Both the position numbers and the translations under genes were made by a program. From a virus, in IMG/VR virus record IMGVR_UViG_3300010354_015610, positions 1 to 27,811 of that record: a stretch of 27,811 nucleotides of DNA; one strand, given 5' to 3'. Each line of letters opens with the position of its first letter. Positions within the stretch are counted from its first letter, which is position 1. The notes under the pieces are model-generated. The model was not told where the DNA came from and searched no databases. It saw only the letters and a program-made list of their open reading frames with translations. Of this stretch, positions 11,219 to 26,816 are shown in pieces.

Positions 11219-11219
11219 T

Positions 11220-11990
11220 TTATTGTCTACTTGTCAAAAATCCAATATAGTCACTATATTGTACACTATCCACAATCCTAAGTCTATGTCTTAAGAAGAA
11301 TTGACCTATTGAGTAACCATTGAAGATACTTAAATGTTCGTGAAATATCCCGTGTGGCAAAGGTGGGCAATCAAAATTCGGCACTTCGAAATAAAAAGTA
11401 GTATCTAGATGACCAAAATTTAATACCTGTTGTAAGACTCGGTCTGGGTCCGATTCGTGCTCTAAAACATGACAACACATAACAAAGTCAAATTTTAGAT
11501 CACTATTTAAACCAAGTTTCTCTATGCCCGGTTGAACAGGTTTATCACTTATGTCATAAACATATTTTTTCACATTGGAATTAAATTCGGGTATATACTT
11601 TCCGTCGTTGCCACCAAAATCCAATAAAGTTTTTATATTGTTCAAGTCAGGATTGCGGTCTATTAGGTAATTTAATCCCACTAGTCTTCGTTCTATTTCT
11701 TCTTCTGTATCAAAAGTTTTAGATACTGCTGCGTAATAAGGATTTAATTCTATTCTGGTCTCGGTATATTCTTTCCCCCGATAGTCTAAATAATATCTAG
11801 AAATTTCAGTATCATCTAATCTAGCATCTGTACCTACCCAGGTACAATCTTGACAAACGATAGCGTGAATAGGTCGATTTGATAAAGTATCTACACCAGT
11901 AGCTCTGGATACTACAAATCTATCTAAAAAGGCATATTTAAATTCTACATTGTAGGATCTGCAGGCCATACAATTATTAATAAGATACAT
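11220..11990 (-). CDS. SAM-dependent methyltransferase with N-terminal zinc-ribbon, sugar C-methyltransferase-like
   Basis: 256 residues. Two CxxC pairs at C7/C10 and C46/C49 look like a zinc-binding head, as in sugar C-methyltransferases. The SAM motif LLDFGGNDGKY is at 122-132, and the post-motif region FDFVMCCHVLEHESDP is typical of class I methyltransferases. The C-terminal NAD-like extension of full-length sugar C-methyltransferases (about 400 aa) is missing, so it is a short version. It sits between an RmlB-like dehydratase and the RfbH-like enzyme, pointing to methylation of a 4-keto-deoxysugar; this is inferred. Confidence 0.75.
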   Translation of the reverse strand: MYLINNCMACRSYNVEFKYAFLDRFVVSRATGVDTLSNRPIHAIVCQDCTWVGTDARLDDTEISRYYLDYRGKEYTETRIELNPYYAAVSKTFDTEEEIERRLVGLNYLIDRNPDLNNIKTLLDFGGNDGKYIPEFNSNVKKYVYDISDKPVQPGIEKLGLNSDLKFDFVMCCHVLEHESDPDRVLQQVLNFGHLDTTFYFEVPNFDCPPLPHGIFHEHLSIFNGYSIGQFFLRHRLRIVDSVQYSDYIGFLTSRQ

Positions 11991-11993
11991 AGC

Positions 11994-12950
11994 TCACCAT
12001 ACAAAAGTTTTACGATAATATTCTACAATTTTGGCTAGTTCTTTATCAAAATTAGCTCGAGCTTGCCACCCCAAAGATTTAAGTTTAGTATCATCTATGC
12101 TATATCTTAAATCTTGACCAGGACGTATCAAATCTTTAACATAATCTCTATAGTCAACGTTCTTTTTAAAATATAATCGAATAATTTTCTGTACAACTTC
12201 GATGTTAGGTAACTCTATATTGCCAGATATATTATAGATTTCATTTACTATTCCGCTGTCGATGATAGTTAATACTGCACGAGCTGTGTCACTGGCGTGT
12301 AACCAAGTTCTTACAGGCTTACCTTTGTCGTGAAGATCAATGGGTTTACCCACTGTTAAATATTTGACCGTTTTTGGTATAAGTTTTTCCACATACTGAC
12401 CAATACCATAGTTATTTGTGGGTCGAACAATAACGTAGGGAATTTGATATGTTCGTGCCCATGCCTGCACTAACATATCCGCTGCGGCCTTAGTGGCGCT
12501 ATATGGATTACTAGGTTTCAATAAATCACTTTCAGTATGACTGCCTTGTAAAATATCACCATACACTTCGTCGGTACTAAAATGTAAAAGAACAGGAACT
12601 TGATATTTTGTTCCCTGTGCTTTTTGTTTAATCAGTTCCAATAATTTGTGTACACCATTAATATTGCTTTTAAGAAAGATATCACTTTGGCTAATACTAT
12701 TATCAACGTGACTTTCTGCAGCGGTATTAATGATGTAGTCACAATCGTATAATCTTTCTAATTCGTTAATGTCTTTGTGTTCGAATATAAAATTTTCATA
12801 TTTTTCTAATCCTTGCAGTAGATTCCAATTAGCAGCATAAGTGCCACTATCTATGCCCCGGACATACCACCCACGTTTTAAACAACTTTCCGCAACATGA
12901 TAGCCTATAAAACCTAAACAACCGGTTACATATACAATTTTTTTATTCAT
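11994..12950 (-). CDS. dTDP-glucose 4,6-dehydratase-like enzyme (RmlB family)
   Basis: 318 residues of the extended SDR family. Residues 10-16 (GCLGFIG) bind NAD. STDEVYGD at 125-132 is the dehydratase signature, with the catalytic Asp-Glu pair, and Y150-x3-K154 is the SDR catalytic dyad (NPYSATKAAAD). This family converts a nucleotide-activated glucose to its 4-keto-6-deoxy derivative, the entry point for deoxysugars. It overlaps the upstream SDR by four bases. The activating nucleotide (dTDP, CDP or UDP) cannot be read from the sequence. Confidence 0.88.
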   Translation of the reverse strand: MNKKIVYVTGCLGFIGYHVAESCLKRGWYVRGIDSGTYAANWNLLQGLEKYENFIFEHKDINELERLYDCDYIINTAAESHVDNSISQSDIFLKSNINGVHKLLELIKQKAQGTKYQVPVLLHFSTDEVYGDILQGSHTESDLLKPSNPYSATKAAADMLVQAWARTYQIPYVIVRPTNNYGIGQYVEKLIPKTVKYLTVGKPIDLHDKGKPVRTWLHASDTARAVLTIIDSGIVNEIYNISGNIELPNIEVVQKIIRLYFKKNVDYRDYVKDLIRPGQDLRYSIDDTKLKSLGWQARANFDKELAKIVEYYRKTFVW

Positions 12951-13741
12951 AAGTAATTTTTTAATCCTTGATGCAAACCCTTTAATTGAATGCCTAATTT
13001 ATTTAATTTGTCTGCGCTACCAGTATAGTTATTTTTACTTGTACTCTCTATAAAAATTTCTCTATCAATATCATGCAATTGTCTAAACTTTTCTATAACT
13101 TCACTAATTAGATATTTGTTTTCGTAAACACAATTTATGTCTTTTGCCCATTCTGGAATATTATTATCTATATAATATTCTACAACAGTACAAAGATCCC
13201 CTATACTGAAATAATCAAAATATCTGTTATTATTAATAACAAATTTTTGATCAACGGAAGATAAAAATTTAGGAAAAATTCTAGTGGCGATTTCTCCGGG
13301 TCCAAAACAATTAAATATTCTTAAATTATAAAAATTATTTTTCGACCAAGATAGTCTACTACGCAAATTTTGACTTAGCCCATATGAATCTATAGGCAAT
13401 CTATCCCAAATTTCATTTTCTTTAACATTGTTAATATTTCTTTGTCTATCATACTCTGCTGCACTGGCAGTATTAATAAATTTTCCAAACAAATCCGAAT
13501 TGGCATAAAAGTTCATATATAGCCCAAGATTGTTTTGAACATCTGAGATAGTATTTGTCATTGTAGCAGCACAGCATACTATAACATCGGGCTGATTAAT
13601 TTCTAACCAATTTTTAACCTTGTTGTAATCTAAAATATCTAAGGTAGTTCTAGTTACATTCAAAATCTTATGTTTTTGATGGAAATATTTGCTTATGTTA
13701 TTGCCAACAAAACCATTACTACCTATTATTGCAATTTTCAT
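12947..13741 (-). CDS. SDR-family nucleotide-sugar reductase/epimerase-like, catalytic Lys replaced
   Basis: 264 residues. It has the N-terminal NAD(P)-binding loop IIGSNGFVGNN (5-15), TASAAEYD in the place of the catalytic Ser/Thr, and DSYGLSQNL, where the YxxxK dyad reads Y120-G-L-S-Q124. The lysine is therefore glutamine. The overall look is that of a short RmlD/GDP-fucose-synthase-like protein. Loss of lysine usually weakens or abolishes dehydrogenase activity, so it may bind rather than turn over its nucleotide sugar. It overlaps both neighbours by four bases. Confidence 0.7.
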   Translation of the reverse strand: MKIAIIGSNGFVGNNISKYFHQKHKILNVTRTTLDILDYNKVKNWLEINQPDVIVCCAATMTNTISDVQNNLGLYMNFYANSDLFGKFINTASAAEYDRQRNINNVKENEIWDRLPIDSYGLSQNLRSRLSWSKNNFYNLRIFNCFGPGEIATRIFPKFLSSVDQKFVINNNRYFDYFSIGDLCTVVEYYIDNNIPEWAKDINCVYENKYLISEVIEKFRQLHDIDREIFIESTSKNNYTGSADKLNKLGIQLKGLHQGLKNYL

Positions 13742-14937
13742 TTGATATTATTTTTAGCAAATTTTATTAAGCCATCAAGCGTAGTTTCGCCTGTTAGTGT
13801 TTTCATCAAACTATATTTTCTGGTCCTATCCTTGTGACCCAAGTAATCTAAAGCAAAATGAGATTTATCTGCTAATCCCCCGGACAATATAACATTCTTT
13901 GTGATACAATCTTTATCTATAGTTTCTATCGCTAGACAATATTGATTAAGCCAAGAACAGGCAATAGCTGATATAAATTGTTTAATTGTTTGCGATTCTT
14001 TAAGATATACAAGCCCAGATTTATCCGGAGATATATAACCCCAACTACCTTCAAAAATTTTTAGATCGACCTGGATGGGATTCTGTTCTAATAAATCGTC
14101 TATAGTCAACTGATTCCAAATATTCCAGAAACGTGAGGGTTCTAATAGTTCTGCTAATACATTCAAAGCTCTGCCAGCTGGGATATGTGTAATCACTTTT
14201 GCCCAGGACGATTTGTCTATAGGTCTAAGATCACCCTCGCCATTCGACATTAACATAGCTACCTGACTACCAGTACCTAAATTAAGAACCAAATCAGCTG
14301 CATTTCCTAAATCCGATCCAATTAGTGCAGCTTGAAGATCCCCTAAGCCCCCATAAATTTGATAACGTTTTTTATCTATAGTGCTTGCTCCTAAATAAGA
14401 GTCTACGATGGGGTAGGTTTCACAGTTTAAGTAATGCAAAATTTTGTCACTAAGATCTGCGGATGAATACTGCACTAATCCTTGACTGGCTACAAGACTA
14501 ATATGATTGCCTTCTATCTCATCCAGGATGGCATTAGCTAATGTGCCGATTTTTTTATTTTTAATGTTTAATGCTTTAATAGTGCTAAAAGCCATACCTG
14601 GCTTAAGTCGCATTTTAGTTTCATTATAAAATTGATAACTCCAACTTAGATCTGCTCTGGCATCTTTCCAACTATAATAATAATCATCCAAACTAAATCC
14701 ATGCATTTCAAAACAGGTAAAAATTTTATCTGCTTGTTGTTTGATATCAATCAGTCTTACTAATTCCTCGAACGCATTTCTATATAATCTTAAAGGAATT
14801 TGATAGGCGGGGTATTTAGCATGATTCTCGGTACTAGGACTAATTACCTCTGCTTTACTTAGTATTCTTTGGGTATCTAGGCAATAGAGCAAGGCTTTTA
14901 TTCTACTTGCACCAAAATCCATTAGAATTATTTTCAC
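13738..14937 (-). CDS. FGGY-family carbohydrate kinase
   Basis: 399 residues of the actin-like ASKHA kinase fold. The phosphate-1 motif is MDFGASRIKALLY (6-18), GGLGDLQAALIG lies in the middle domain junction, LVLNLGTGSQVAML supplies the phosphate-2 motif, and ILSGGLADKS is the adenosine motif. The family phosphorylates free sugars such as xylulose, ribulose, glycerol or sedoheptulose; this short version resembles sedoheptulokinase more than xylulokinase (about 480-500 aa). Its gene overlaps that of the sugar-phosphate cyclase by four bases, so it may supply sedoheptulose 7-phosphate to it (inference). Confidence 0.78.
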   Translation of the reverse strand: MKIILMDFGASRIKALLYCLDTQRILSKAEVISPSTENHAKYPAYQIPLRLYRNAFEELVRLIDIKQQADKIFTCFEMHGFSLDDYYYSWKDARADLSWSYQFYNETKMRLKPGMAFSTIKALNIKNKKIGTLANAILDEIEGNHISLVASQGLVQYSSADLSDKILHYLNCETYPIVDSYLGASTIDKKRYQIYGGLGDLQAALIGSDLGNAADLVLNLGTGSQVAMLMSNGEGDLRPIDKSSWAKVITHIPAGRALNVLAELLEPSRFWNIWNQLTIDDLLEQNPIQVDLKIFEGSWGYISPDKSGLVYLKESQTIKQFISAIACSWLNQYCLAIETIDKDCITKNVILSGGLADKSHFALDYLGHKDRTRKYSLMKTLTGETTLDGLIKFAKNNIK

Positions 14938-16076
14938 GCTACAGCCTTCTTAATAGAACTTAATATTTCACTAAGACCATTATCATCTAAATTTAAACTG
15001 ATAAATTCCATAAGATTACTTGCAGTCAAGGTTGCAATCTTTAAGGTATTGCCCTCTGCTTTCTTATCGTTAGTAAGAAAGGTCATTAGATTTTCCAAGG
15101 GTAAATTTTTAATAAACATTTGTATATAATCACTGATTAGTCTTTTTCCCAAAATATTAATACGTTTATTTAAATGTTCAGACAATAAGTGTCTATCCGT
15201 AGATAGTTGATTTTCTATAATCATACCCAAACTCACAGCCTGTCCATGAGGAATGTAATAATTAGAAAGAGCTTCTAAAGCGTGACCTAAACTGTGACCG
15301 TAATTCATGCTCCTTCTAATATCCAATTCAAATTCATCATTTTCTACAATAGCTTTTTTAACTTGCAGGCTAGAGGAAATTAAATTTTTTATAGTTGTTT
15401 TGTCTTTAACTAAAAACGAATCTATAGAATTTTCTAATAATTCGATACAATTGTCACCTGCAGTGGCAAGTAGTCTGAATATTTCCCCTGCACCACTTAA
15501 ATAATCACTGAGTCTTAATGATTCTAAAAAGTTAATATCAATGAAAACTCTGCGTGGTGCACTAAACAGACCCAAGACATTTTTACTATTACCGTGATTC
15601 ACTGCAGTTTTTCCCCCTAAACAACTATCAGCCTGTGCTAATAGGGTAGTAGGTATAAAAGTCCAAGGTATACCACGTTTAAACATATAGGAACTAAATG
15701 CACCTAAATCCTGTAGTATCCCCCCTCCGATAACAAATAAATGACTGCCCCTATTAGCATTTTGTTCAAGCAACCAATTGCAAATGTGCAAAACCTTGTT
15801 GATATTTTTATTGTCCTCTACTGCATCCACTTCATAAACATTTATATTACCAAAATTAACTGTATTTAGACAGATATTTTTTACATTTTTATCTATCAGT
15901 ATAAGAGGATGTTTTTGATCTTGCATCAATGAATTAATCCAAGTAAATTTGTTATCATTAATAAATTCTACTGTATAGGGTCTCGGCTTACTATCTACTC
16001 GAAAAATATCTAAATTAGAATCAATAGTTAAATCAAATATATCTTGTTGAATTTGAAATTTTGTCTTAATTATCAT
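14934..16076 (-). CDS. Sugar-phosphate cyclase of the 3-dehydroquinate synthase superfamily
   Basis: 380 residues. NAD and metal-site motifs are clear: FVIGGGILQDLGAFSS (115-129), PTTLLAQADSCLGGKTAVN (142-160), then metal ligands E198, H261 (NYGHSLGHALE) and H277 (PHGQA), and DKK at 337-339. In dehydroquinate synthase the E-V-I-K motif has lysine; here it is E198-I-F-R201, an arginine. The superfamily also includes enzymes that cyclise sedoheptulose 7-phosphate (2-epi-5-epi-valiolone synthase, desmethyl-4-deoxygadusol synthase). Given the FGGY kinase beside it and no other shikimate gene, a C7-sugar cyclase is more likely than a true aroB. Confidence 0.8.
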   Translation of the reverse strand: MIIKTKFQIQQDIFDLTIDSNLDIFRVDSKPRPYTVEFINDNKFTWINSLMQDQKHPLILIDKNVKNICLNTVNFGNINVYEVDAVEDNKNINKVLHICNWLLEQNANRGSHLFVIGGGILQDLGAFSSYMFKRGIPWTFIPTTLLAQADSCLGGKTAVNHGNSKNVLGLFSAPRRVFIDINFLESLRLSDYLSGAGEIFRLLATAGDNCIELLENSIDSFLVKDKTTIKNLISSSLQVKKAIVENDEFELDIRRSMNYGHSLGHALEALSNYYIPHGQAVSLGMIIENQLSTDRHLLSEHLNKRINILGKRLISDYIQMFIKNLPLENLMTFLTNDKKAEGNTLKIATLTASNLMEFISLNLDDNGLSEILSSIKKAVA

Positions 16077-16741
16077 TGTTGAAATCCTCCTGCCGAATAT
16101 CCGCCATCTATAACAATATTTTGACCAGTTAAATATGAATTAGATTCGCTGGCAAGATAGTATACTAAATCAGCTACTTCTTCAGATTTACCTAATCGCT
16201 GTAGAGGTATATTATTTTCTAACTGTTTGATTACATCTACACTGTTATTTTTTTTAGTCATTTTAGTCATTATATAACCCGGGCTTACTGAATTAACTGC
16301 TACATTATATTTTGCTAATTCTATAGCCAATGTTCTTGTTATGCCTAGCAAAGCATGTTTACTAGCACTATAGGCCAATCTGCCCTGTCTACCAAACATA
16401 GTATAAAGACTGCCAATTATAATTAGTTTGCCTAAATTAGAAGCTTTCCAATGGTCTATATTTTTTTGTACAATAGGCAAAAAACCCGTGACATTAATTC
16501 TTAAATTTTTTTCTATTTGTTCTATATTATCTAATTCAAATCGTGTAGGATTATTAAATCCTGCACAGTGAATAATAATATCCCAAGGGCCATTATGGGT
16601 AAGAAACTGTTGAACACTATCTCTACAATCTAGGTTGCATACTTTTTGACCTACAGATGTTACTTGAAAGTTTAGAAACTTTTCTGCTATAGCCTGTCCT
16701 ATGTCACCAGTACCACCTAGTATCAATACTGACTTATTCAT
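16073..16741 (-). CDS. Short-chain dehydrogenase/reductase (FabG-like)
   Basis: 222 residues from the ATG at 16739-16741, chosen because it starts just before the Rossmann strand (MNKSVLILGGTGDIG); an upstream in-frame start adds eight residues. It has GGTGDIG (9-15), IHCAGFNN (NNAG position), catalytic S111, Y124 and K128 (YSASK), and the typical PGYI and C-terminal SYLTGQNIVIDGGYS. It is a complete classical SDR acting with NAD(P)H on a hydroxyl or keto group. It overlaps the end of the TPP-enzyme gene by 8 bases. A role in reducing the keto sugar made by its neighbours is inferred. Confidence 0.83.
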   Translation of the reverse strand: MNKSVLILGGTGDIGQAIAEKFLNFQVTSVGQKVCNLDCRDSVQQFLTHNGPWDIIIHCAGFNNPTRFELDNIEQIEKNLRINVTGFLPIVQKNIDHWKASNLGKLIIIGSLYTMFGRQGRLAYSASKHALLGITRTLAIELAKYNVAVNSVSPGYIMTKMTKKNNSVDVIKQLENNIPLQRLGKSEEVADLVYYLASESNSYLTGQNIVIDGGYSAGGFQQ

Positions 16742-18587
16742 AAATGTTATTATGCATTTCCTCATCAGGTAAAAATGGACTCATATTTTCTAGACTAGGA
16801 GCTAGCATAGAACCATCCGATAACTTTTTCGCTGCCAATTTGGGTGCAAATTGCTGTTCAGGATCTACTATAACATTATAAAGCATGGGTTCATTATTAG
16901 TAAATGAATTTTGAACTAGATTATTGGTCCAATCTTCCCATTTCTCTATTCTACGGCTTTTAATATCGAATGCATCTGCTATACGAACAAAATCTGGCAA
17001 ACTAAGTCCATTGGTAAAATCGGTGCCAAATTGATTATCATTAAAGTAATTTTGTTGTGTTTGTTTGATACTTAGATAACCATTATTGTTTAATAAAATA
17101 ATTTTTATTGGCAAACCATAGTTCTTAATAGTTTCAAGTTCTTGAAGATTCATCATTATACTGCCATCACCGGCTATACAAATTATTCGTTTACCAGGAT
17201 TGGCAAATGAAGCACCAATAGCAGCAGGTAAATCATAACCCATACTAGCATCACCAGAATTGGTATAAAGACGCTGACCTTGTTTTATTTTGCCAGTTTG
17301 AAACGGAATTACACAAGCACTGCCATTAGCTGTGACCACAATATCATCTTTATCCAGTGACAGAAATAAATCATTGATAAATTTGTAAGGATTTAATAAG
17401 TCTTTATGTTGATAGTGAGGTAAGACTACAGGATATTTAATTACACGTTCTTTGCACCAGGTTAAAAAACGCTTATGCTCTACCATGGGCTGATATTCAA
17501 CTAATTTATGAAGAAAAGCTGGTATGAAGTCTTTAAGGTCTGCCTGAATGGTAAGATCAGATTTTAGTGTTGGCTTGTCTAGTTCGGCACGATCTATATC
17601 AACGTGAATTTTGTAGGCTTTTTTAGCAAAATTTTTAAAGTTATAGCTTATCTGTCGTATGTTTAATCTACTGCCTAACACAAGAATAAAGTCTGCATTT
17701 TGAACAGTAAAATTGCCGGCCCTGTCGCCTACAGTACCGGGCCGGCCGGCATAACATTCATGATCATTAGGTAGCGCATCATGTGCATTCCACCCTGTTA
17801 CAGTGGGAATACTTAATTGTTTACTTAATTTTAGAAAATTGTGGTATTGGCCGCTTAATCGAATACCTGCACCTGCAAATAAAACTGGGCAACGAGATTT
17901 TTTAAGTTTATCTAATATCTTATCGATTTGTATATCATGATTTCGATGTACATTAGAGTAAGTTTCTAATTCTAATTTGGTATTATCGGTAATATATGGA
18001 CTATTTTTTAAACTTTCAATATCACCCGGCCAACCCTGTAAATGTTGTGAATCAATTTGCATACTACTTATGTCAATCGGGATATCGATCCAAACAGGTC
18101 CAGGCCTTCCATTAACTGATAACCAAAGAGCTTGATCTAGTATCATTTTTATATCTTTAGCATCTTTCACTGTACAACCGTATTTTATAACCGGATTAGC
18201 CATTGCAATTATGTCAATTTCTTGATCACCCAACTGCCTCATAGGAATAGAATACTGTTTATAGTGTGTTTCTAACTTTACTTGACCTGATATAACTATC
18301 ATTGCACAACTGTCCACATAGGCACCATAGACACCGTTCAGTGCATTAATACCGCCGGGTCCTGTAGTTACATTTAGTAATGCTAATCTATTACTGCTTC
18401 TATAATAACTTTCTGCTGCCATTGCCGCAGCTTGTTCGTGATGAAAGCATATAGTGGTAAGTTTTTTATGGCGTGCAAAAGCATCATTAAGATGCATTGA
18501 ACCGCCGCCAGTGACTAGAAAAGCGTGGGTGATGCCAAATTGTGTTAAACGATCTGCAACATAGTCGGCTAAACGTTGCAGAGCCAT
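16734..18587 (-). CDS. TPP-dependent enzyme, acetolactate-synthase/YerE-like
   Basis: 617 residues in the three-domain layout of TPP enzymes: N-terminal PYR domain with catalytic E51 (HHEQAAAMAAES), central domain (about 215-365), and C-terminal PP domain with GDGS (473-476) and NN at 500-501, the Mg-TPP site. It resembles the large subunit of acetolactate synthase, but the setting has no branched-chain amino acid gene. In yersiniose synthesis, YerE of this family adds a two-carbon acetyl unit from pyruvate to a 4-keto-3,6-dideoxy sugar made by an E1-type enzyme, and the operon has an E1-like enzyme. That role is an inference; simple acetolactate synthase activity is the alternative. Confidence 0.85.
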   Translation of the reverse strand: MALQRLADYVADRLTQFGITHAFLVTGGGSMHLNDAFARHKKLTTICFHHEQAAAMAAESYYRSSNRLALLNVTTGPGGINALNGVYGAYVDSCAMIVISGQVKLETHYKQYSIPMRQLGDQEIDIIAMANPVIKYGCTVKDAKDIKMILDQALWLSVNGRPGPVWIDIPIDISSMQIDSQHLQGWPGDIESLKNSPYITDNTKLELETYSNVHRNHDIQIDKILDKLKKSRCPVLFAGAGIRLSGQYHNFLKLSKQLSIPTVTGWNAHDALPNDHECYAGRPGTVGDRAGNFTVQNADFILVLGSRLNIRQISYNFKNFAKKAYKIHVDIDRAELDKPTLKSDLTIQADLKDFIPAFLHKLVEYQPMVEHKRFLTWCKERVIKYPVVLPHYQHKDLLNPYKFINDLFLSLDKDDIVVTANGSACVIPFQTGKIKQGQRLYTNSGDASMGYDLPAAIGASFANPGKRIICIAGDGSIMMNLQELETIKNYGLPIKIILLNNNGYLSIKQTQQNYFNDNQFGTDFTNGLSLPDFVRIADAFDIKSRRIEKWEDWTNNLVQNSFTNNEPMLYNVIVDPEQQFAPKLAAKKLSDGSMLAPSLENMSPFLPDEEMHNNIYE

Positions 18588-19693
18588 CAGATACCTCTGT
18601 GTAAAATTAAATCTTTAAGACGTGGATTTTCGTTGTATGGGCCGTCGATATGATCGATTGTTAGTGGTTGATTAGCCTTAATAGATTGAATTAATTTTTC
18701 ACCATCTAGTACTTCTCTACAACTTAGTTGTCCTTTATGCAAAGGAATGCTTAGATAGAAATCTTTAAGAAAGTTGTCTTTATTAAGTGTATATCCAGGT
18801 TCGATATCTCTTTTAGCATAGGCGCCACGAACTAATGCATCTAGGTATTCAGTTTCCTTTTTACTAATTACACGTCTGCTATCACTATATCCGCCGCACA
18901 TTTCTACTGCTTTATGAAATGCTTTAAACCAAGTATCACACTGTTCGGGCAGACTACAATAAGTGCTTACAGGGATACCCTCATAATCAATATCAATATG
19001 CCTTTCCCAAGTTCTAGCACCTTTAGCATAGCTTATTAGCATACTATTAGACCAGTCGTGATATTCGTGTGTACTGAAACCTACTACATGATCTGGATAT
19101 CTTTGTTTAATATAATCAATTTGATCAAGATGTAATTCATCATCTTCACTAGGGTAAAGACTTACACAGTGATTTATTGCCAAAGGAATATCTCTTCGTT
19201 CAAAAAATATAACAAGATCATCTAGATCTTTTTCGCTAGCGCCACCGGTGCTCACAATCACGGGTTTTCTAGTACTAGCTATTTTATTAATTAAAGGCCA
19301 ATCATTCATATCTGAGCTGGCAATTTTAATAATTGGCATATTAAAAAATTCACAAAGATCTACACTTTGTTCGTCAAATGGTGTGGCCATTGGGATAGCA
19401 CTGACTTTTTTAATTTCGTTAACTAATTTACTAAATTGCTCGATTGTTAATTTAGTATCCTCAGTTTTTTTAACATATCTAAGATCTTGATTGCCTTTAA
19501 AATCGTTATGAATAAATTGATCAACATCTCTAAACTGTAATTTTATAGCTGTTTTGACATTATTGTATCTAGCAACAGTGCCGTGATCTCTAATAATTTT
19601 AATACCTCTTTCAACTTTCCCCCAATGATTATTGGCTAATTCTAGTACAAAAAGGTTCTCGAAAATTTCTCTATCTCGTTGTTTGATTTTCAT
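18587..19693 (-). CDS. NeuB-like PEP-condensing synthase (sialic-acid synthase family)
   Basis: 368 residues. An N-terminal NeuB TIM barrel begins with VLELANNHWGKVERG (16-30), the place of the family motif E-x-(A/G)-x-N-H-x-G, and continues with ATPFDEQSVD, IKIASSDMND and VSTGGAS; a C-terminal SAF domain follows (around 290-350: AKRDIEPGYTLNKDNFLKDF). The family condenses PEP with an N-acyl hexosamine to make nonulosonic acids (sialic, legionaminic, pseudaminic). It may instead use a different aldose here, since no other sialic-acid gene (NeuA, NeuC) is seen. It meets the TPP-enzyme gene with a one-base overlap. Confidence 0.85.
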   Translation of the reverse strand: MKIKQRDREIFENLFVLELANNHWGKVERGIKIIRDHGTVARYNNVKTAIKLQFRDVDQFIHNDFKGNQDLRYVKKTEDTKLTIEQFSKLVNEIKKVSAIPMATPFDEQSVDLCEFFNMPIIKIASSDMNDWPLINKIASTRKPVIVSTGGASEKDLDDLVIFFERRDIPLAINHCVSLYPSEDDELHLDQIDYIKQRYPDHVVGFSTHEYHDWSNSMLISYAKGARTWERHIDIDYEGIPVSTYCSLPEQCDTWFKAFHKAVEMCGGYSDSRRVISKKETEYLDALVRGAYAKRDIEPGYTLNKDNFLKDFYLSIPLHKGQLSCREVLDGEKLIQSIKANQPLTIDHIDGPYNENPRLKDLILHRGI

Positions 19694-19702
19694 AAATGTT
19701 CC

Positions 19703-20464
19703 TTATTTCAAAATACCGTTATAATTAGGTATTCCGAGATTATTATTAACTGCATTCATTAACTGAACACGTTGCTGACTATTTCTACTTCCGGACCAAT
19801 GAATCATATGTGCATAACGCATTTTAAAACAGTTCCATTCGTCCATGTCCCGTTGACTGGCCCAAGGTAACCAATGTGCCATATAATAAATATCTGGTCT
19901 ATGTGCTTCTTCCCAAGGGATATTTTGACTCCAAAACATTTGATTGGTAATAATCTGATCGTCGCCCCACTCACTATCTCTATAATTACTGACCATTTGC
20001 TCAAAAATTTCCCAAACTGATCTAGAGGTTGTATGTGGTATATAAACTAGATCTCCGTTAAAATAATCTTTATGGCTAATATTCCAAGGATTGGGATCTG
20101 TAAACGATTTAGGGTCTGTCCAGTTAAACATTCTAAATTCAGCAAATTGATCAAATATCCTTGTTGGTCTTACCATACTTACATCAGGGCCCACAATAAG
20201 AATATTACAGGGTTCTTGATGCCACATATTGTATACTCTTTGCCATCCCAGCCGTGCAGATTGATTTACGTGATCTACATCTTCTGTAAAACAAACTTCC
20301 TCCCAGTCACCCGCAAGAAAATGACGTAGACTAGCTCGGCTAGCTTGGTACATACTTAGATAATTTTGATATACATCACCTTCTGTACTAGTATCTTTAA
20401 AATTCCATTTAGGATCTTTGATACGACGATGTGCACCGACTACAATATTTTTAACTTTGGACAT
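19703..20464 (-). CDS. Glycosyltransferase-like protein
   Basis: 253 residues, rich in Trp and Tyr. A VGPDVSMVRPT segment after a hydrophobic strand (CNILIVGPDVS, about 86-96) sits where GT-A enzymes carry their acidic nucleotide-sugar-binding motif. GDDQIITNQMFW has the acidic/Gln pattern seen in the acceptor half of such enzymes. I recall no named family with certainty. The neighbours (methyltransferase and NeuB-like synthase) fit a transferase that uses an unusual sugar. It overlaps the upstream gene by 14 bases. Confidence 0.5.
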   Translation of the reverse strand: MSKVKNIVVGAHRRIKDPKWNFKDTSTEGDVYQNYLSMYQASRASLRHFLAGDWEEVCFTEDVDHVNQSARLGWQRVYNMWHQEPCNILIVGPDVSMVRPTRIFDQFAEFRMFNWTDPKSFTDPNPWNISHKDYFNGDLVYIPHTTSRSVWEIFEQMVSNYRDSEWGDDQIITNQMFWSQNIPWEEAHRPDIYYMAHWLPWASQRDMDEWNCFKMRYAHMIHWSGSRNSQQRVQLMNAVNNNLGIPNYNGILK

Positions 20465-21101
20465 CTTTATCTCTATCTATAAACTTACCCATAATTACTG
20501 TGCTATTTTGTCTATAACCCTGGGCATGAATAACACTAAGTCCCTGAGTAGCTAGATATGGAATAGCAGCACTACATTTTCCTATAAACACTCCTTCATT
20601 TGGATGATACCAAGTATCATCACAAATTACTAAACAATTATCTGTCAAATAATCCACCAAATACATAGCCTGCATAAGATGCGATAGTTGGCTATTTAGA
20701 TTATTCATTTCTACATTTAGATTTTGTTTATATCTTTCTTTAACTATAGGCACAAATGGTTCTTCTTCTATTCCTAACCAATAGTTCCAATCAAAGTTAT
20801 CTAAATAGGCTAAAGATATTTTAGCTTCAGGTTCAAACTCTCTATACTTTCTTAAAAAGATTTCGCCTAAAGCATTTATAATTTGAACATTTTTAAATTT
20901 GTCATCGGTTGTTAAAAGACTGCTTAGGTGTCGACATTGATCTTCCATTGCATCCACTGCATATAATTTTGTGGAGCGAGAGGCTGCTTGTTCCGCAAAC
21001 CATCTTGTACTGCCTTCACCTCTTTCAACACCTATTTCTACCCAAACTCCTGGATCGATTTTATCCAAAAATTGTTCTACACTAGTGTATGCTATTCCCA
21101 T
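20451..21101 (-). CDS. Class I SAM-dependent methyltransferase (Methyltransf_24-like)
   Basis: 216 residues. Motif I VWVEIGVERGEGSTRWFAE (19-37) is the SAM-binding loop, LYAVDAMEDQ follows with the acidic residue at the end of strand 2, then KISLAYLDNFDWNYW and CLVICDDTW, an acidic motif typical of O-methyltransferases of the CmcI/macrocin type. It is complete for this small-methyltransferase layout. The gene sits between NadE and the glycosyltransferase-like gene, so a sugar is a plausible acceptor. Confidence 0.7.
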   Translation of the reverse strand: MGIAYTSVEQFLDKIDPGVWVEIGVERGEGSTRWFAEQAASRSTKLYAVDAMEDQCRHLSSLLTTDDKFKNVQIINALGEIFLRKYREFEPEAKISLAYLDNFDWNYWLGIEEEPFVPIVKERYKQNLNVEMNNLNSQLSHLMQAMYLVDYLTDNCLVICDDTWYHPNEGVFIGKCSAAIPYLATQGLSVIHAQGYRQNSTVIMGKFIDRDKDVQS

Positions 21102-21109
21102 TAAAAATC

Positions 21110-22069
21110 CTATTTTAAAATTTTGTCGACTTGTTGTAATCCCGAGAATCTTTCATTAAATAATGGATGAATTAGATTGCAAGGATTATTTCTTTTGAAT
21201 ACACTGTTACTTATTCTGTTTAAAATAGCAGCGACCTTAACCTGATCTGATGAGTCTGGTTTCAAATATTCTATGATATCGGTCAAATTACTAAAACTTT
21301 GTGAGCTATGACATAGACTTAATAGAACTAAATCAAATTCTAAATAACTAAAACCAAATTGATCTTCGTCGCCATTGCTAATGCCTAGTCCATCGGTAGG
21401 TTTAGCCATTACTGTTGATTCTGGGACGCTATAAATTTCTGCTGTTTTAGGCACTTCCCAACTTTTACTAAGACTTTGAATTGGAGCCAAATCCCCCACA
21501 TCCCCATGTAGAGTCCAAAAACCTGCAGCCAATTCACTAAAGTTATCTGTACTGGCTACTAAACCGCCTAACTTACTGGCCATATTATAAAGAGTCATCA
21601 TACGCAGTCTTACACGAAGATTAGCGGATCTAATCTTAGATGTTTTTAAATGAATATCATCATCGAATTGTTTAAAATCCTTAACAAGATTGCGATAGGT
21701 GTCTGTGAGATCAATAGTTTGAATTGGGACCTTAAGTGTTTCTGCGGTTTCAAGTGCTCTTTCAGTTTCCCCTGGGTTCTGTAGAATTGGAAGGGTATAC
21801 GCCTGTACATTCCATTTTGCTGCTTTAAATAATGCTGCGGTAAGAGCACTATCAACTCCTCCGCTCATTCCTATTACAACATTACGAATATTGAATTTTT
21901 TACTGTAGTTTTTGAGTTCGCGTTCTAATTTAGTTGCAGTATCTTCTAGAGTATTTTGATCTGGATAAAGTCCTTGATCTATACATTGATCTAGTAAATT
22001 TCCAAACCAGGAACTTAGTGGGGCGATTGTTTCTTGTCTACTGTAGTAAAGTATATTTTCTTTTGACAT
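21110..22069 (-). CDS. nadE: Ammonia-dependent NAD synthetase
   Basis: 319 residues. The N-type ATP-pyrophosphatase P-loop SGGVDS is at 69-74 after VVIGM. STDNFSELAAGFWTLHGDVGDLAPI is the typical NaAD/ATP-binding region of NadE, and KPTDGL with DEDQFGFSYLEFD completes the active site. It has no glutaminase domain, so it uses free ammonia to turn nicotinate-adenine dinucleotide into NAD. It heads a long sugar operon whose SDR-type and cyclase enzymes need NAD or NADP, which may explain its place here. It starts two bases after the upstream gene. Confidence 0.9.
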   Translation of the reverse strand: MSKENILYYSRQETIAPLSSWFGNLLDQCIDQGLYPDQNTLEDTATKLERELKNYSKKFNIRNVVIGMSGGVDSALTAALFKAAKWNVQAYTLPILQNPGETERALETAETLKVPIQTIDLTDTYRNLVKDFKQFDDDIHLKTSKIRSANLRVRLRMMTLYNMASKLGGLVASTDNFSELAAGFWTLHGDVGDLAPIQSLSKSWEVPKTAEIYSVPESTVMAKPTDGLGISNGDEDQFGFSYLEFDLVLLSLCHSSQSFSNLTDIIEYLKPDSSDQVKVAAILNRISNSVFKRNNPCNLIHPLFNERFSGLQQVDKILK

Positions 22070-22368: not shown

Positions 22369-24039
22369 ATGGATAGATATCAGGAATTAGAATTATTAAT
22401 CAATAAATTTGTTAGGGAAATACCAAATAACAAAGAATATGATTTAAGGTTAGAAGAAGAATTAGAATTAATAGCTCGATTAGGTTTTGCAAAACATTTT
22501 TTACGTGTTCGTGAAATACTAGACCTTACTCGAGATATACCACATATTACTCGTGGGTCAGCAGGTAGTAGTTTAATTTGTTGGCTAATGGGTATTTCCG
22601 ATGTAGACCCAATCGCAGAACGTATACCGCTAGCACGTTTTATGAATCCAAAACGCGATGATCTACCTGACATCGATTTGGATTTTCCTCATTGGCAACA
22701 AGAAACTGTAATGAATCGTATATTTCGTCGTTGGCCAGGACAAAGTGCCAGAGTTAGTAACTATGTTACCTATAAGGAAAAATCTGCCATTCGAGAAGCA
22801 GCAAAGAGATTTGGTGCTAAAGGTAAACTAAAACGTAATTTTAAATTAGAAGATGTAGTTCCCGAATATGCAGAAGATGCACGTAGACTAGCCAATAAGC
22901 TATTAGGTAAAAAACGTTGTATATCTAAACATTGTGGCGGTATACTAATATTTGATCGTAGTGTGCCAAAAAGTCTAATCAATGCAGAAAATCAAATATT
23001 ATTGGACAAATACGAAATAGAAGATCTCGAACATTTTAAAATTGATATACTGGCTAATCGAGGGCTAAGTCAATTATGGGAAATTGAACAAAGCAATCTA
23101 CTTGATTATCCCGAAGAGGATGATGCTACTGCAGAACTTTTAAGTCGAGGTGATGTACTTGGTGTAACTCAAGCCGAAAGCCCTGCAATGCGAAGATTAT
23201 TTCGTGCAATACAGCCTAAAAGTAGAGCAGATTGTGTGCTAGCAACTGCCTTAATTAGACCGGTGGCCACACAAGGACGCAGGCGTGCCAGTTTTTTCCA
23301 AGATTGGAGCAAGGATGGTTTTGATAATACCATTGTGTTCGAAGATGATGCAATCAAATTGATTAGTGAAATATTAGGATGCAATCACTACGATGCAGAT
23401 ATGTGGCGTCGTGCTTTTGCAAAAAAGAATGAAGAAAAAATGTTTGAGTTTATGCAACTAGTCGGCAATCACCCTAGACGTAATGATGTATTTTTAGCGT
23501 TAAAAGAACTAAGTCATTTTGGGCTCTGTCGTGCTCACGCTATTAACTTAGGTAGATTAATTTGGGCATTAGCTTATCAAAAAGCTCACAACACAAAGAA
23601 TTTTTGGCATTCAGCACTAAAACATTGTCAAGGTAGTTATGCTCGTTGGGTATATTGGCAAGAAGCCAAATTAGCTGGTGTTGTAGGTGTCCCATTAGAG
23701 GGCAATGAAGTAACTGAGCTTATGGCAACTGGTAGATGGAACAGTCCAAGATTTCTTCCTGCATGCAGAGAAGTACGTCGCCCAGGAGAAGTAGAATTTT
23801 GTGGTCTAGTGGCTAACTATCGCGTATTTAAATCAGGTCCTAAAGATTATATAACCTTTGCCACTTTGGGAACAGGTAATGGTCGATATCTTGATGTTGT
23901 TTTGAGACATGCTACTAGCTTTCACGATCATCCTGTGCTATGGGGAATGGGCAAATTAGGCTACAAAAACAATACAGAATATGTTACACTATACAAACAT
24001 AAAAAGTTGAAACTTAGTGAAATTAAACACCTAGAATGA
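22369..24039 (+). CDS. Compact DnaE-type DNA polymerase III alpha core, PHP domain absent
   Basis: 556 residues, about half of a bacterial DnaE. It has the polymerase-core motifs in order: RGSAGSSLICWLMGI (62-76), PDIDLDF (100-106, catalytic Asp residues), HCGGILIFD, ALIRPVATQG after GVTQAESPAMRRLF, YDADMWRRAFAKKN, then FGLCRAHAINLGRLIWALAYQKAH. The PHP exonuclease domain is absent, and the C-terminus (about 445-556) looks like an OB fold (VEFCGLVANYRVFKSGPKDYITFATLGTG). It should polymerise DNA but probably needs other factors for proofreading and processivity. It is on the opposite strand from its neighbours. Confidence 0.88.
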   Translation: MDRYQELELLINKFVREIPNNKEYDLRLEEELELIARLGFAKHFLRVREILDLTRDIPHITRGSAGSSLICWLMGISDVDPIAERIPLARFMNPKRDDLPDIDLDFPHWQQETVMNRIFRRWPGQSARVSNYVTYKEKSAIREAAKRFGAKGKLKRNFKLEDVVPEYAEDARRLANKLLGKKRCISKHCGGILIFDRSVPKSLINAENQILLDKYEIEDLEHFKIDILANRGLSQLWEIEQSNLLDYPEEDDATAELLSRGDVLGVTQAESPAMRRLFRAIQPKSRADCVLATALIRPVATQGRRRASFFQDWSKDGFDNTIVFEDDAIKLISEILGCNHYDADMWRRAFAKKNEEKMFEFMQLVGNHPRRNDVFLALKELSHFGLCRAHAINLGRLIWALAYQKAHNTKNFWHSALKHCQGSYARWVYWQEAKLAGVVGVPLEGNEVTELMATGRWNSPRFLPACREVRRPGEVEFCGLVANYRVFKSGPKDYITFATLGTGNGRYLDVVLRHATSFHDHPVLWGMGKLGYKNNTEYVTLYKHKKLKLSEIKHLE

Positions 24040-24332: not shown

Positions 24333-24356
24333 AGGCACCCTAGGGTGCCTTTAATT
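24327..24356. terminator. Bidirectional terminator between polymerase unit and ahpD
   Basis: Perfect 30-bp palindrome: AATTAAAGGCACCC, TA, and the reverse complement. The stem ends in A/T runs on both sides, so it can stop transcription from either direction. The two converging genes end inside it (stop codons at 24330-24332 and 24355-24357). Confidence 0.85.
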
Positions 24357-24873
24357 AACTTGCTAACACTCGACTTACCGCGGTGACCACTGCAGCAATA
24401 CGACCAATATCTCTCAATTGCTCAACTGTGTAACCTTCTTTCTTTAAGGTTTCATAATGAGACTTCACACAGAAGTGGCATTTACCCACGATACTAGCAG
24501 CAAGACTGTATGCTTCAAATCTTGCTTTAGTAGTACCGCCATGACTGCTGATAGCATTCATACGTAGTTGAGGTGGAAGACCTTTAAGTTGTTGATCATC
24601 AGCCATTTCAACATAGGGATACCAAGTGTTGTTCATGGACATTAGACTAGCAGCAGTAAGAGCAGCATCTGCTTCTTTGCGATCTGCCAGTTGACTGTGT
24701 ACCCAAGTCCAAAACTTGCTATTTCCAGTTGCAAAAGCAGCAGCTAATGCAACTGCTTCGGCTTCTTCTACTGGCAAACTACTACGCTTGATTACTGCAT
24801 CAATATTAAGTTTAGTATCTTTGGCATATTCCGGGATACTGTTTTCTTTAAGTGCATCAACCCAAGCGGTCAT
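24355..24873 (-). CDS. ahpD: AhpD-type alkylhydroperoxidase
   Basis: 172 residues from the ATG at 24871-24873, which overlaps the ahpC stop by one base (TAATG); a longer in-frame start lies inside ahpC and is unlikely. The CxxC motif is CHFC (C132-x2-C135) followed by H139, with E120 upstream: the AhpD proton-relay set. In mycobacteria AhpD reduces AhpC, taking electrons from dihydrolipoamide-dependent partners; here the pair is coupled in the same order, consistent with a functional peroxidase system. Confidence 0.9.
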   Translation of the reverse strand: MTAWVDALKENSIPEYAKDTKLNIDAVIKRSSLPVEEAEAVALAAAFATGNSKFWTWVHSQLADRKEADAALTAASLMSMNNTWYPYVEMADDQQLKGLPPQLRMNAISSHGGTTKARFEAYSLAASIVGKCHFCVKSHYETLKKEGYTVEQLRDIGRIAAVVTAVSRVLAS

Positions 24874-25418
24874 TATAGAGTCTCCCCTCCGACTGCACGA
24901 TTGCATGGGCAAAGTTCGCCAGTTTGTAATGCATCCAGTACACGCAATGTTTCATCTGGATTACGACCAACATCTAGATTATTAACAGTGACGTGTTGAA
25001 TTACATTGTTTGGATCAACAATAAAGGTAGCACGAAGTGCAGCACCAGCAGGTTGATAGAAAATACCTAGTTGTTCGGCAAGGCTTAGTTCACCGCGAGC
25101 CACATCAGCAAAACTCCAACTATTAGTTTTCTTTAGATCTTCGTGAGCATTACGCCAAGCCAATTTACAAAATTCGTTATCTGTGGAACCGATGAGCAAT
25201 ACTGCATCACGATCTGAGAAATCTTTATTAAGTTTGTCGTAAGCCACAATCTCAGTGGGACAAACAAAGGTAAAGTCTTTTGGATAGTAAACAACAACTT
25301 TCCATTTACCTTCAAAACTTTTTTCAGTGATAGTTTCAAATGCACCATCGGGTGTCAGTGCACCTGGCTTAACTCCGGTAATTGCAAAACTTGTGATTTT
25401 GTCGCCAATTGTTTTCAT
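24873..25418 (-). CDS. ahpC: AhpC-type peroxiredoxin (mycobacterial-like, extra resolving cysteine)
   Basis: 181 residues. The peroxidatic cysteine is C53 in DFTFVCPTE, with the supporting R129 (ALRATFIVDP). The C-terminal resolving region is ELCPCNR (C170 and C172), the two-cysteine arrangement also seen in the AhpD-linked AhpC of Mycobacterium. The enzyme reduces hydrogen peroxide, organic peroxides and peroxynitrite. It is followed by ahpD with a one-base overlap and preceded by a good SD (AGGAG). A gene for an HNH-like protein precedes it. Confidence 0.93.
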   Translation of the reverse strand: MKTIGDKITSFAITGVKPGALTPDGAFETITEKSFEGKWKVVVYYPKDFTFVCPTEIVAYDKLNKDFSDRDAVLLIGSTDNEFCKLAWRNAHEDLKKTNSWSFADVARGELSLAEQLGIFYQPAGAALRATFIVDPNNVIQHVTVNNLDVGRNPDETLRVLDALQTGELCPCNRAVGGETL

Positions 25419-25445: not shown

Positions 25446-25796
25446 TTATTTCTGTGCTTTACAGTTTGGGCAAATTAGTTGAAGATTCTTTTCATCATTG
25501 TTATAAGAATTGCCATCAATATAATCTACTACCAACGGTATAGACTGTTGATTGTGTTTTTCATTATCACATACAGAACAACGATGTCCATGTTGTTCTA
25601 TTAGATATTTTTTAACCCAATCTGGAACCTGTCTCCATGCTGTTGGTGTCTTAGATTCTTTCCATTCGTTTACCAATGAACGGCTACGATATTGTGCTTG
25701 ACAACTGTTATTGCAAAATTTGTTAGTATAGCTGTTCCCTTTAATAGGATTTACTCTACCACAATTTAAACAAGTAAAACATCCCAATGTCTGCAT
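25446..25796 (-). CDS. HNH-family protein with degenerate catalytic motif
   Basis: 116 residues. It has an N-terminal zinc cluster (C9, C12, C28, C32) and a C-terminal HNH-like region HRCSVC (C73, C76), VVDYIDGNSYNNDEKNLQLICPNC (C109, C112). In working HNH enzymes of this type the middle reads DHIDG; here the histidine is tyrosine (Y92), and the last PNCH is PNCK. Nuclease activity is therefore doubtful and a DNA-binding role is possible. Such genes often move between phages. It sits just upstream of ahpC, which it may share a transcript with. Confidence 0.75.
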   Translation of the reverse strand: MQTLGCFTCLNCGRVNPIKGNSYTNKFCNNSCQAQYRSRSLVNEWKESKTPTAWRQVPDWVKKYLIEQHGHRCSVCDNEKHNQQSIPLVVDYIDGNSYNNDEKNLQLICPNCKAQK

Positions 25797-25929: not shown

Positions 25930-26103
25930 ATGGAATCTAAGTTAAGAACTTTAGTTAAATCATTATCGTTTCGAATAGTTGCATTGTTAATTACAGCACC
26001 AATAATAGGTTTTAATCTAGCACTAGGAATACAAATAATATTATTTTTTGCCTATTATCTTCATGAAAGGGTATGGTTAAAGATAAATTGGGGTAAAGTC
26101 TAA
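25930..26103 (+). CDS. DUF2061-type small membrane protein
   Basis: 57 residues beginning MESKLRTLVKSLSFRIVALL and containing FAYYLHERVW near the end. This matches my memory of the DUF2061 family (N-terminal MES-LR-L-K--S-R, a hydrophobic middle, then YYLHER-W). One hydrophobic stretch (SFRIVALLITAPIIGFNLALGI-type) followed by a second predicts two short membrane passes. Function of the family is unknown. It converges on the tmRNA gene, and both use the stem-loop at 26110-26131. Confidence 0.72.
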   Translation: MESKLRTLVKSLSFRIVALLITAPIIGFNLALGIQIILFFAYYLHERVWLKINWGKV

Positions 26104-26106
26104 AAC

Positions 26107-26131
26107 AAAAAAGGCACCCGAAGGTGCCTTT
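26107..26131 (-). terminator. UUCG terminator of the tmRNA gene, possibly bidirectional
   Basis: Stem AAAGGCACC (26110-26118) and GGTGCCTTT (26123-26131), with loop CGAA, read as the very stable C(UUCG)G tetraloop on the minus strand and followed by TTTTTT. It ends the tmRNA precursor; on the plus strand it lies right after the DUF2061 stop. The arms match the core of the 24327-24356 terminator. Confidence 0.87.
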
Positions 26132-26322
26132 GGTTTGTTGGGTTACAAGGTCTTTCCTACCCCGTGGAGCTTACGCGGCTAAGCGAAGATCTCCAATGAA
26201 TGTATCATCATTTGCAGATACTTGTTTTGCTTCTACGGCCGAGTTACCCCAACCCTAACGGTTTCCACATTACCGTGTTGTCCAGTTATCTATTACACGC
26301 CAATCGATACTGTTTCGGGCCC
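26132..26322 (-). ncRNA. tmRNA coding piece with tag frame
   Basis: Begins at G1 of the acceptor stem (26322), followed by a D-arm-like stretch (AAACAGTATCGATTGGCG) and a pseudoknot-like GG/CC region, then the resume codon region (GTAGAA-GCA, with U-A-G at -5 to -3 as in other tmRNAs). The tag ORF is folded into a helix GGAG...CTCC that closes over its last codons. The 3' end of the mature piece is uncertain; I extend it to the terminator stem. Confidence 0.8.
26171..26230 (-). other. tmRNA tag reading frame, 19 codons
   Basis: Starting from resume codon GCA (26228-26230), it encodes AKQVSANDDTFIGDLRLAA and stops at TAA (26171-26173). It ends with LAA, the usual ClpXP signal. The block ANDD in the middle is the usual start of tag peptides (as in ANDENYALAA), so the tag is extended by five residues at the front if this resume codon is right. 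An in-frame GCA five codons later is the alternative. Confidence 0.7.
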
Positions 26323-26410
26323 ATTATAAAAGCACAAATAACATAAACAGACAAATTATACCAAATCCTACTATCAGTCTGACAAAATCATCTTGCATAT
26401 AATACTCTTA
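26323..26410 (-). other. tmRNA intervening segment removed in maturation
   Basis: The 88 bases between the CCA of the acceptor piece and G1 of the coding piece. In two-piece tmRNAs this segment is cut out by tRNA-type processing (RNase P at the 5' end of the coding piece, 3'-end nucleases after the CCA). Here it is almost entirely filled by a 24-codon reading frame. Confidence 0.75.
26324..26398 (-). CDS. 24-residue hydrophobic peptide frame inside the tmRNA spacer (uncertain)
   Basis: ATG at 26396-26398 to TAA at 26324-26326. The peptide begins MQDDFVRL and then has about 17 hydrophobic residues (to ...FVLL), as for a tiny transmembrane segment. Its stop ends one base before the coding piece begins, and an AAGAG six bases before the ATG could serve as a weak SD. 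It might be a real small gene, or an accident of AT-rich sequence; nothing in the codons decides this. Confidence 0.35.
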   Translation of the reverse strand: MQDDFVRLIVGFGIICLFMLFVLL

Positions 26411-26475
26411 TGGTGGACCCGGCCGGCACTGCCCCGGCGTCTTGTTCGTCTTTCAACTTCCTTCATACAACAATA
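26411..26475 (-). ncRNA. tmRNA acceptor piece
   Basis: The 3' half of the tRNA-like domain: it includes the T arm (26422-26438), the 3' strand of the acceptor stem and CCA (26411-26413). The 5' boundary is the predicted transcription start about 26475. A stretch TGTTGT close to it could pair with ACAACA in the coding piece, but this pairing is weak evidence. Confidence 0.8.
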
Positions 26476-26481
26476 AACTGC

Positions 26482-26510
26482 AGTATATATTTATTAAGGA
26501 ATGTTGTCAA
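26482..26510 (-). promoter_or_regulatory. Sigma70-like promoter of the tmRNA gene
   Basis: TTGACA (26505-26510), 17-base spacer, TATACT (26482-26487). Start expected about 26475. The perfect -35 and 17-base spacing indicate strong constitutive transcription. Confidence 0.85.
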
Positions 26511-26549: not shown

Positions 26550-26816
26550 TTATTTGGAATAACATTGCCTACAATCATCGCATTTAACAGATAATGATCT
26601 AATAAAATCAATAGGTTTAGGAGGATTATCAGATAGACTATCTAATTCAATATAATTGCAGCATTTATCTCTGCAATTTTTACAATCCAGATCGCATCGT
26701 CCTGCTATAAAACCAGTAACAGTTTTGGGAAAATTTCTACAACAGTCAGGTCTTTGATCATATATGCTGCACAGTTCATCTACAGTAAGATATGGGCATC
26801 TCATCGATAAATTCAT
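26550..26816 (-). CDS. YkgJ-like cysteine-rich metal-binding protein
   Basis: 88 residues with 11 cysteines: CPYL (C7), LCSIYDQRPDCCRNFP (C16, C25, C26), then CDLDCKNCRDKCC (C41, C45, C48, C52, C53) and C79, C82, C85. The C-x-IY--RP--CR-FP segment is the core of the YkgJ/UPF0153 family, thought to bind zinc or iron; the full N-terminal CxxC part found in longer members is absent. It lies 16 bases after the DadA-like gene. No substrate is known. Confidence 0.7.
   Translation of the reverse strand: MNLSMRCPYLTVDELCSIYDQRPDCCRNFPKTVTGFIAGRCDLDCKNCRDKCCNYIELDSLSDNPPKPIDFIRSLSVKCDDCRQCYSK

Follow-up and report, generated by a model that had tools for sequence, protein, structure and literature searches.

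The window (the whole stretch of DNA analysed here, a linear IMG/VR record of 27,811 bases) is a fragment of a jumbo-phage-like genome, and it carries a permuted, phage-encoded tmRNA gene in whose spacer a second gene, one for a protein, is probably nested. The permuted, two-piece tmRNA itself is genuine. When the Rfam covariance models were run, the window matched RF04321 with 95.3 bits (E = 1.4e-17, gathering cut-off 47; 26472-26171, minus strand) and RF01849 with 76.8 bits (E = 1.8e-19, gathering cut-off 50; 26514-26129, minus strand). These were the only Rfam families above cut-off within the window, and the match is far beyond chance.

The anatomy given in a preliminary description of this DNA was borne out. 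In the Rfam alignments, the 3' acceptor piece precedes the 5' coding piece. The acceptor stem has 7 bp (GGGCCCG / CGGGTCC) with the G3:U70 pair, and the ACCA end is encoded; the T-arm lacks TTCGA and reads GCCGG-GGCAGTG-CCGGC; the tag frame has a degron-like LAA end. The promoter described as strong matches the sigma-70 consensus at 11 of 12 positions, and the UUCG terminator corresponds to a TTCG-loop intrinsic terminator; together, promoter (26510-26482) and terminator (26131-26110) bound a stand-alone transcription unit. The positions of these features and of the neighbouring genes are collected in Table 1.

Table 1. Features of the tmRNA gene and its neighbours in the window.
Feature	Position	Strand	Evidence or remark
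Phage DnaE-type DNA polymerase	22369..24039	+	PF07733 2.8e-40; 90% identity to 79-kb viral contig L107
Carboxymuconolactone decarboxylase/AhpD-like gene	24355..24912	-	PF02627 1.7e-12; adjoins AhpC in many phage loci
AhpC/TSA peroxiredoxin, phage-borne	24873..25418	-	PF00578 8.2e-23; identity of up to 92% in phage contigs with a tmRNA
HNH endonuclease-like gene, downstream of tmRNA	25446..25796	-	PHROG matches; adjoins AhpC in phage loci L115, L216, L281 and L314
Intrinsic terminator GGCACC-TTCG-GGTGCC + T-run	26110..26131	-	
tmRNA coding piece, mature 5' end GGGCCCG, mRNA-like domain	26132..26322	-	RF01849/RF04321; 3' limit approximate
Tag reading frame, ANDDTFIGDLRLAA and stop	26171..26215	-	Second GCA as resume codon
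Intervening spacer, 88 nt	26323..26410	-	Predicted to be removed from mature tmRNA; ends form processing stem in fold
Nested ORF, predicted 24-aa transmembrane microprotein, MQDDFVRLIVGFGIICLFMLFVLL and stop	26324..26398	-	Within 88-nt spacer
Acceptor 3' strand CGGGTCC + ACCA	26421-26411	-	Complementary to coding piece
T-arm within acceptor piece	26438-26422	-	
tmRNA acceptor piece (3' half)	26411..26476	-	RF04321/RF01849 alignments; 5' limit approximate
Sigma-70 promoter TTGACA-17-TATACT	26482..26510	-	11/12 consensus; promoter region same in relatives L093, L098 and L099
CxxCxxCC (PF03692) protein gene, upstream of tmRNA	26550..26816	-	Pfam 2.3e-6; tblastn 34-40% to L232/L278

The tag ANDDTFIGDLRLAA assumes the second GCA as the resume codon, as in the relatives; read from the first GCA it would be AKQVSANDDTFIGDLRLAA. 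The tag of the relative L088/L099 is ANDDTFIGALKLAA, and 185 of the 216 tags in our phage tmRNA set end in LAA. About one quarter of the phage tmRNAs have long tags of 24-36 aa (for example L337, L324, L369, L451, L459 and L464) in which conserved segments recur, for instance TGEVTVSGKNVKFSAR...LAV or ADTFDFSAMSFTGN...LAA; the recurrence of these segments suggests that the long tags are translated, and the true resume codon could also sit further in. Two other permuted genes (L196 and L198) have a spacer of a few bases and no encoded CCA after the discriminator base, so that they would have to be processed in another way and to receive their CCA afterwards. ARAGORN did not detect the tmRNA of the window, and found one of six phage permuted tmRNAs on which it was run.

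The preliminary description had missed an open reading frame in the spacer. Its start codon follows the CCA after 12 nt (TAAGAGTATTAT), which include a weak SD (TAAGAG), and its stop lies 1 nt before the coding piece. The predicted microprotein is hydrophobic (best 17-residue mean 3.1), which makes a role in the membrane likely; an involvement in lysis or in membrane proteolysis would be pure speculation. About 25 other phage tmRNA genes have a homologue in the corresponding position. We define this family of spacer microproteins by a length of 22-24 aa, an acidic N-terminus, one hydrophobic helix, a stop at -1 and a spacer of 80-90 nt; the membrane microproteins that recur in spacers of this size have 21-24 aa, a further example being MNDDLTHLGIGVVVVLVVFALVLL. 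The peptide of the window fits the family in length (24 aa), position, stop offset (-1, in an 88-nt spacer) and similarity, the last with a permutation P < 1e-5.

The family appears to be translated, judging from signatures of purifying selection with an excess of third-position changes. Among 14 members, pN/pS was 0.206 and the differences at codon positions 1, 2 and 3 were 394, 171 and 800, as compared to pN/pS values of 0.92 and 7.7 when the same DNA was read in the other two frames. Such periodicity would not be expected from RNA structure alone. Moreover, spacers with the 24-aa ORF were 82% identical (median) vs. 58% for the surrounding coding pieces, which points to conservation of the ORF itself. 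The nearest tmRNA relatives of the window by acceptor and coding piece (L088/L099, L085 and L090) have plain hairpin spacers; the microprotein is therefore not constant in the lineage, and the spacer cargo changes between related phages. No 24-aa spacer protein was found by tblastn in cultured phages, a search in which low-complexity filtering may hide matches, and a narrower DNA pattern for the microprotein gave no matches, its spacing being one that did not fit.

Larger protein genes occupy other phage spacers. Many of the long spacers are ORFs that start 6-16 nt after the CCA, with an SD in between, and stop at the spacer end. One of them (L397) encodes a nested thioredoxin (PF00085, E = 4.1e-21); those of L232 and L278 encode a CxxCxxCC protein (PF03692 for L278) with a dN/dS of 0.065 between the two; those of L102 and L203 encode an 83-aa protein (dN/dS 0.164); and 35-aa membrane proteins are found in L100, L368 and L400. 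The 83-aa protein is inside the tmRNA spacer also in L485 and L489 and is free-standing in L486, L487 (a 331-kb contig) and L488, while the CxxCxxCC protein, which sits inside the spacer in L232 and L278, is encoded by a free-standing gene beside the tmRNA in the window. The occurrence of the same proteins inside the spacer and free-standing indicates that those in the spacer are real genes. No counterpart of the 83-aa protein was found in cultured phages by tblastn, and the phage collection yielded no cultured jumbo phage that has a spacer ORF. Across related phages, the best explanation is that the spacer is a cargo site, which holds a bare hairpin, a microprotein or larger genes.

We weighed this reading against the simpler one of an ordinary phage permuted tmRNA, whose spacer is only a processing hairpin and whose 24-aa frame in the window is accidental. 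A strict ORF test was applied to 209 unique spacers with a tag, and the counts were compared with those of shuffled sequences. Strict ORFs were present in 0 of 70 spacers shorter than 70 nt (shuffled mean 0.76, two bins summed), 29 of 74 spacers of 70-90 nt (0.67), 3 of 28 of 90-110 nt (0.29), 5 of 19 of 110-150 nt (0.07) and 9 of 16 of at least 150 nt (0.01); a looser definition gave little excess below 70 nt. The spacer sequences are phylogenetically non-independent, and the 70-90 nt bin was partly retrieved by an SD-plus-ATG pattern (L446-L475), so that SD and start are ascertained there; when shuffling kept both, the mean was 7.0 and the maximum 12, vs. 29 observed. Leaving out the SD-plus-ATG loci and the window, an ORF of at least 20 aa was present in 27 of 189 spacers, and its absence from the other 162, in a set not selected on SD or start, speaks for an accident, as do the plain hairpins of the nearest relatives and the bacterial spacers. 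The bacterial permuted tmRNAs used as controls, all five from plasmids or chromids (three Cupriavidus, Pandoraea and Microvirga), have hairpin spacers of 31-91 nt and no spacer ORF in any of them. In the Cupriavidus spacers a TGA already sits one base ahead of the coding piece, so that the position of the stop may be inherited, and a conserved TGA at this place eases short in-frame ORFs. The SD and the ORF may be the phage addition. However, an accidental frame is at odds with the ORF counts, with the purifying selection on the family, with the similarity of the window peptide to that family and with the clear protein genes in other spacers, and we consider it unlikely.

The phage origin of the window, a claim of the preliminary description, was confirmed by the tmRNA, capsid and neighbour genes of related phages. 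A UvsW-type helicase, a phage DnaE polymerase and several PHROG families are distributed along the window; the polymerase (22369..24039) served to place the contig, and the nearest match of the helicase is in Sinorhizobium phage Phosso, with Agrobacterium phage Atu_ph07 also among the best matches. Related contigs were retrieved with an AAA protein and the DNA polymerase as queries. A permuted tmRNA is present in seven of the eight that reach at least 250 kb, and relatives of up to 357 kb combine the tmRNA with T4-type capsid genes and the same neighbour genes as the window. The proposed check for virion genes, run on the relatives, revealed a T4-type major capsid gene in 12 of the 13 tested records that reach 250 kb or more. 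The HNH, AhpC and AhpD-like genes turn up again in further viral contigs, and all three occur together in four loci; AhpC adjoins the tmRNA in 9 of the 68 tmRNA-pattern loci with enough flank and thus is not a general neighbour. Two further observations concern the surroundings: a gene for a 57-aa DUF2061 membrane protein (25930-26103; PF09834, 2e-5) lies on the opposite strand just past the tmRNA terminator, and a cluster of sugar-nucleotide, surface polysaccharide-type and NAD-synthase-like genes occupies 9881-22069. At the right contig end (26833-27804) is a gene for a FAD-dependent oxidoreductase (DadA-like) with no relative in any phage locus examined, which makes this end of the window less certain; its matches in the phage collection were only bacterial-looking records labelled Acinetobacter phage MD-2021a. 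This gene and other host-like flanking genes are what a fragment of a bacterial chromosome, or a chimera, carrying the host's own ssrA would show. Against it stand the helicase, the polymerase and the PHROG families across the contig, together with the recurrence of the tmRNA and its three neighbours in viral contigs. A host-chromosome origin was rejected on these grounds, and on the T4-type capsid genes of the related phages, as highly improbable.

The preliminary description had regarded a permuted tmRNA as something unusual in a phage, and this was not supported: the consulted sections of PMC9004378 (2022) report two-piece tmRNAs in Melnitz, in Mosig and in 53 phage tmRNA structures, mostly aquatic, so that permuted phage tmRNAs are not new, and more than 200 distinct ones were recovered here from IMG/VR. 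Two patterns for the acceptor piece each matched at least 120 stretches in viral contigs, while the first of them (P1) gave, in 84,980 bacterial and archaeal genomes, one chance-like match, in Bacteroides and without a proper T-arm. On these numbers the acceptor form looks viral, as read through a narrow motif pattern, and it may still have had a bacterial ancestor. The tmRNA of the window showed no DNA similarity to cultured phages. Permuted tmRNAs were observed in three cultured phages. Sinorhizobium phage Phosso has one at 3097-3699 of locus L445 (PV764938.1 349596-350198) with no annotated feature over it and an unusually long spacer with no annotated CDS inside. The Pseudomonas aeruginosa phages SM1 (L483, KU245542.1) and UF_RH6 (L484, OQ383211.1) have one each (118.6 and 118.8 bits), with the tag ANDTSFDVRLAA; in both phages the annotation of this stretch lists no tmRNA. 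The tmRNA of P. aeruginosa itself is one-piece.

The preliminary description had also suggested an alphaproteobacterial host as the source of the gene, which might take the place of host trans-translation or redirect it during infection. Several findings favour such a capture: the RF01849 match comes with an alpha-like T-arm, the 14-aa tag ending in RLAA resembles that of the alphaproteobacterial Microvirga (ANDNVDMGAVRLAA), and the phage with the nearest helicase, Phosso, itself bears a permuted tmRNA. Against it, the acceptor motif was viral in the scans but for the single chance-like match, the T-arm type differs between related phages, with alpha-like and TTCGA forms mixed, and some related viral contigs also score above the cut-off of RF01850 (beta). 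We regard capture as rather doubtful. The T-loops switch among related phages (alpha-like GGCAGTG and GGCAGAA vs. TTCGA), which suggests an exchange of tmRNA parts.

Returning to the nested gene, its ribosome-binding region lies within the predicted processing stem, as indicated by the pairing of the spacer ends in folds of the acceptor strands plus spacer. In the fold of the window, the acceptor stem is extended by about 10 bp (z = -2.67), with 9 pairs between the first 14 nt of the spacer and its 3' end. Pairing of at least 6 of the first 14 spacer nt with the final 22 is seen in every one of the 46 ORF spacers, and likewise in 144 of the 145 remaining ones.

These features suggest how the gene may work. 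One transcript would run from the sigma-70 promoter to the TTCG-loop terminator, and in the predicted fold of the precursor the two spacer ends pair into a processing stem that prolongs the acceptor stem. By analogy with known permuted tmRNAs, the mature tmRNA would arise as two pieces through cuts made by host RNase P and 3' processing enzymes. No SmpB gene was found among 24 related contigs, so that the phage tmRNA would have to use host SmpB; relying on this and on alanyl-tRNA synthetase, it would free stalled ribosomes in the infected cell and add ANDDTFIGDLRLAA for ClpXP-type proteolysis. The spacer would encode the single-pass 24-aa membrane microprotein. Because its ribosome-binding region is in one strand of the predicted stem and its last codons and stop are in the other, its translation is expected to require a precursor that has been opened or cut. 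We tentatively propose that the pre-tmRNA is a dual RNA, which would act as mRNA for the spacer protein when uncut or freshly cut and as tmRNA when fully processed. With these parts of the nested gene forming the stem, its output would serve as a readout or a regulator of tmRNA maturation, and the spacer would be an exchangeable cargo site.

The window tmRNA is like those of Melnitz (a methylophage) and Mosig (a Pelagibacter phage), which the consulted sections of PMC9004378 present as permuted, of alphaproteobacterial affinity and from large aquatic myophages. Those sections describe a glutamine riboswitch linked to ssrA in Melnitz, whereas no Rfam match to a glutamine riboswitch was found in the window, and they make no mention of a protein gene in the spacer for either phage. 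With the permuted tmRNAs of Alphaproteobacteria and Betaproteobacteria (RF01849, RF01850 and RF04321) it shares gene order, the G3:U70 stem, the alpha-type T-arm and a hairpin that links the two pieces within the precursor, and it differs from them in the spacer ORF, where the five bacterial spacers are hairpins, and in the phage acceptor motif, absent from bacteria but for the one match noted above. The parts of PMC11915505 consulted cover 97,179 tmRNAs, 11,946 permuted, 79 from phages; inside permuted spacers they report a tRNA gene and a repeat element, and the homing endonuclease genes they describe lie in introns, with no mention of a protein gene in a permuted spacer. The group I intron tmRNAs described there likewise have a protein gene within a part removed from the precursor, but they are self-splicing, interrupted in the T-loop and carry LAGLIDADG genes, unlike the permuted-gene spacers, which have no intron and a non-endonuclease cargo. 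In the literature searched, we found no description of a protein gene in a permuted tmRNA spacer. What is new is the probable protein-coding role of the spacer that separates the CCA end from the coding piece, the permuted phage tmRNA being already known.

Permuted tmRNAs are common in jumbo phages, and the usual tool, ARAGORN, misses most of those tried. If the nested gene is confirmed, a rescue-RNA gene that doubles as a protein messenger would pack coding capacity in a new manner, ribosome rescue would be linked to the expression of another gene, and conserved microproteins would be seen to hide in RNA regarded as discarded.
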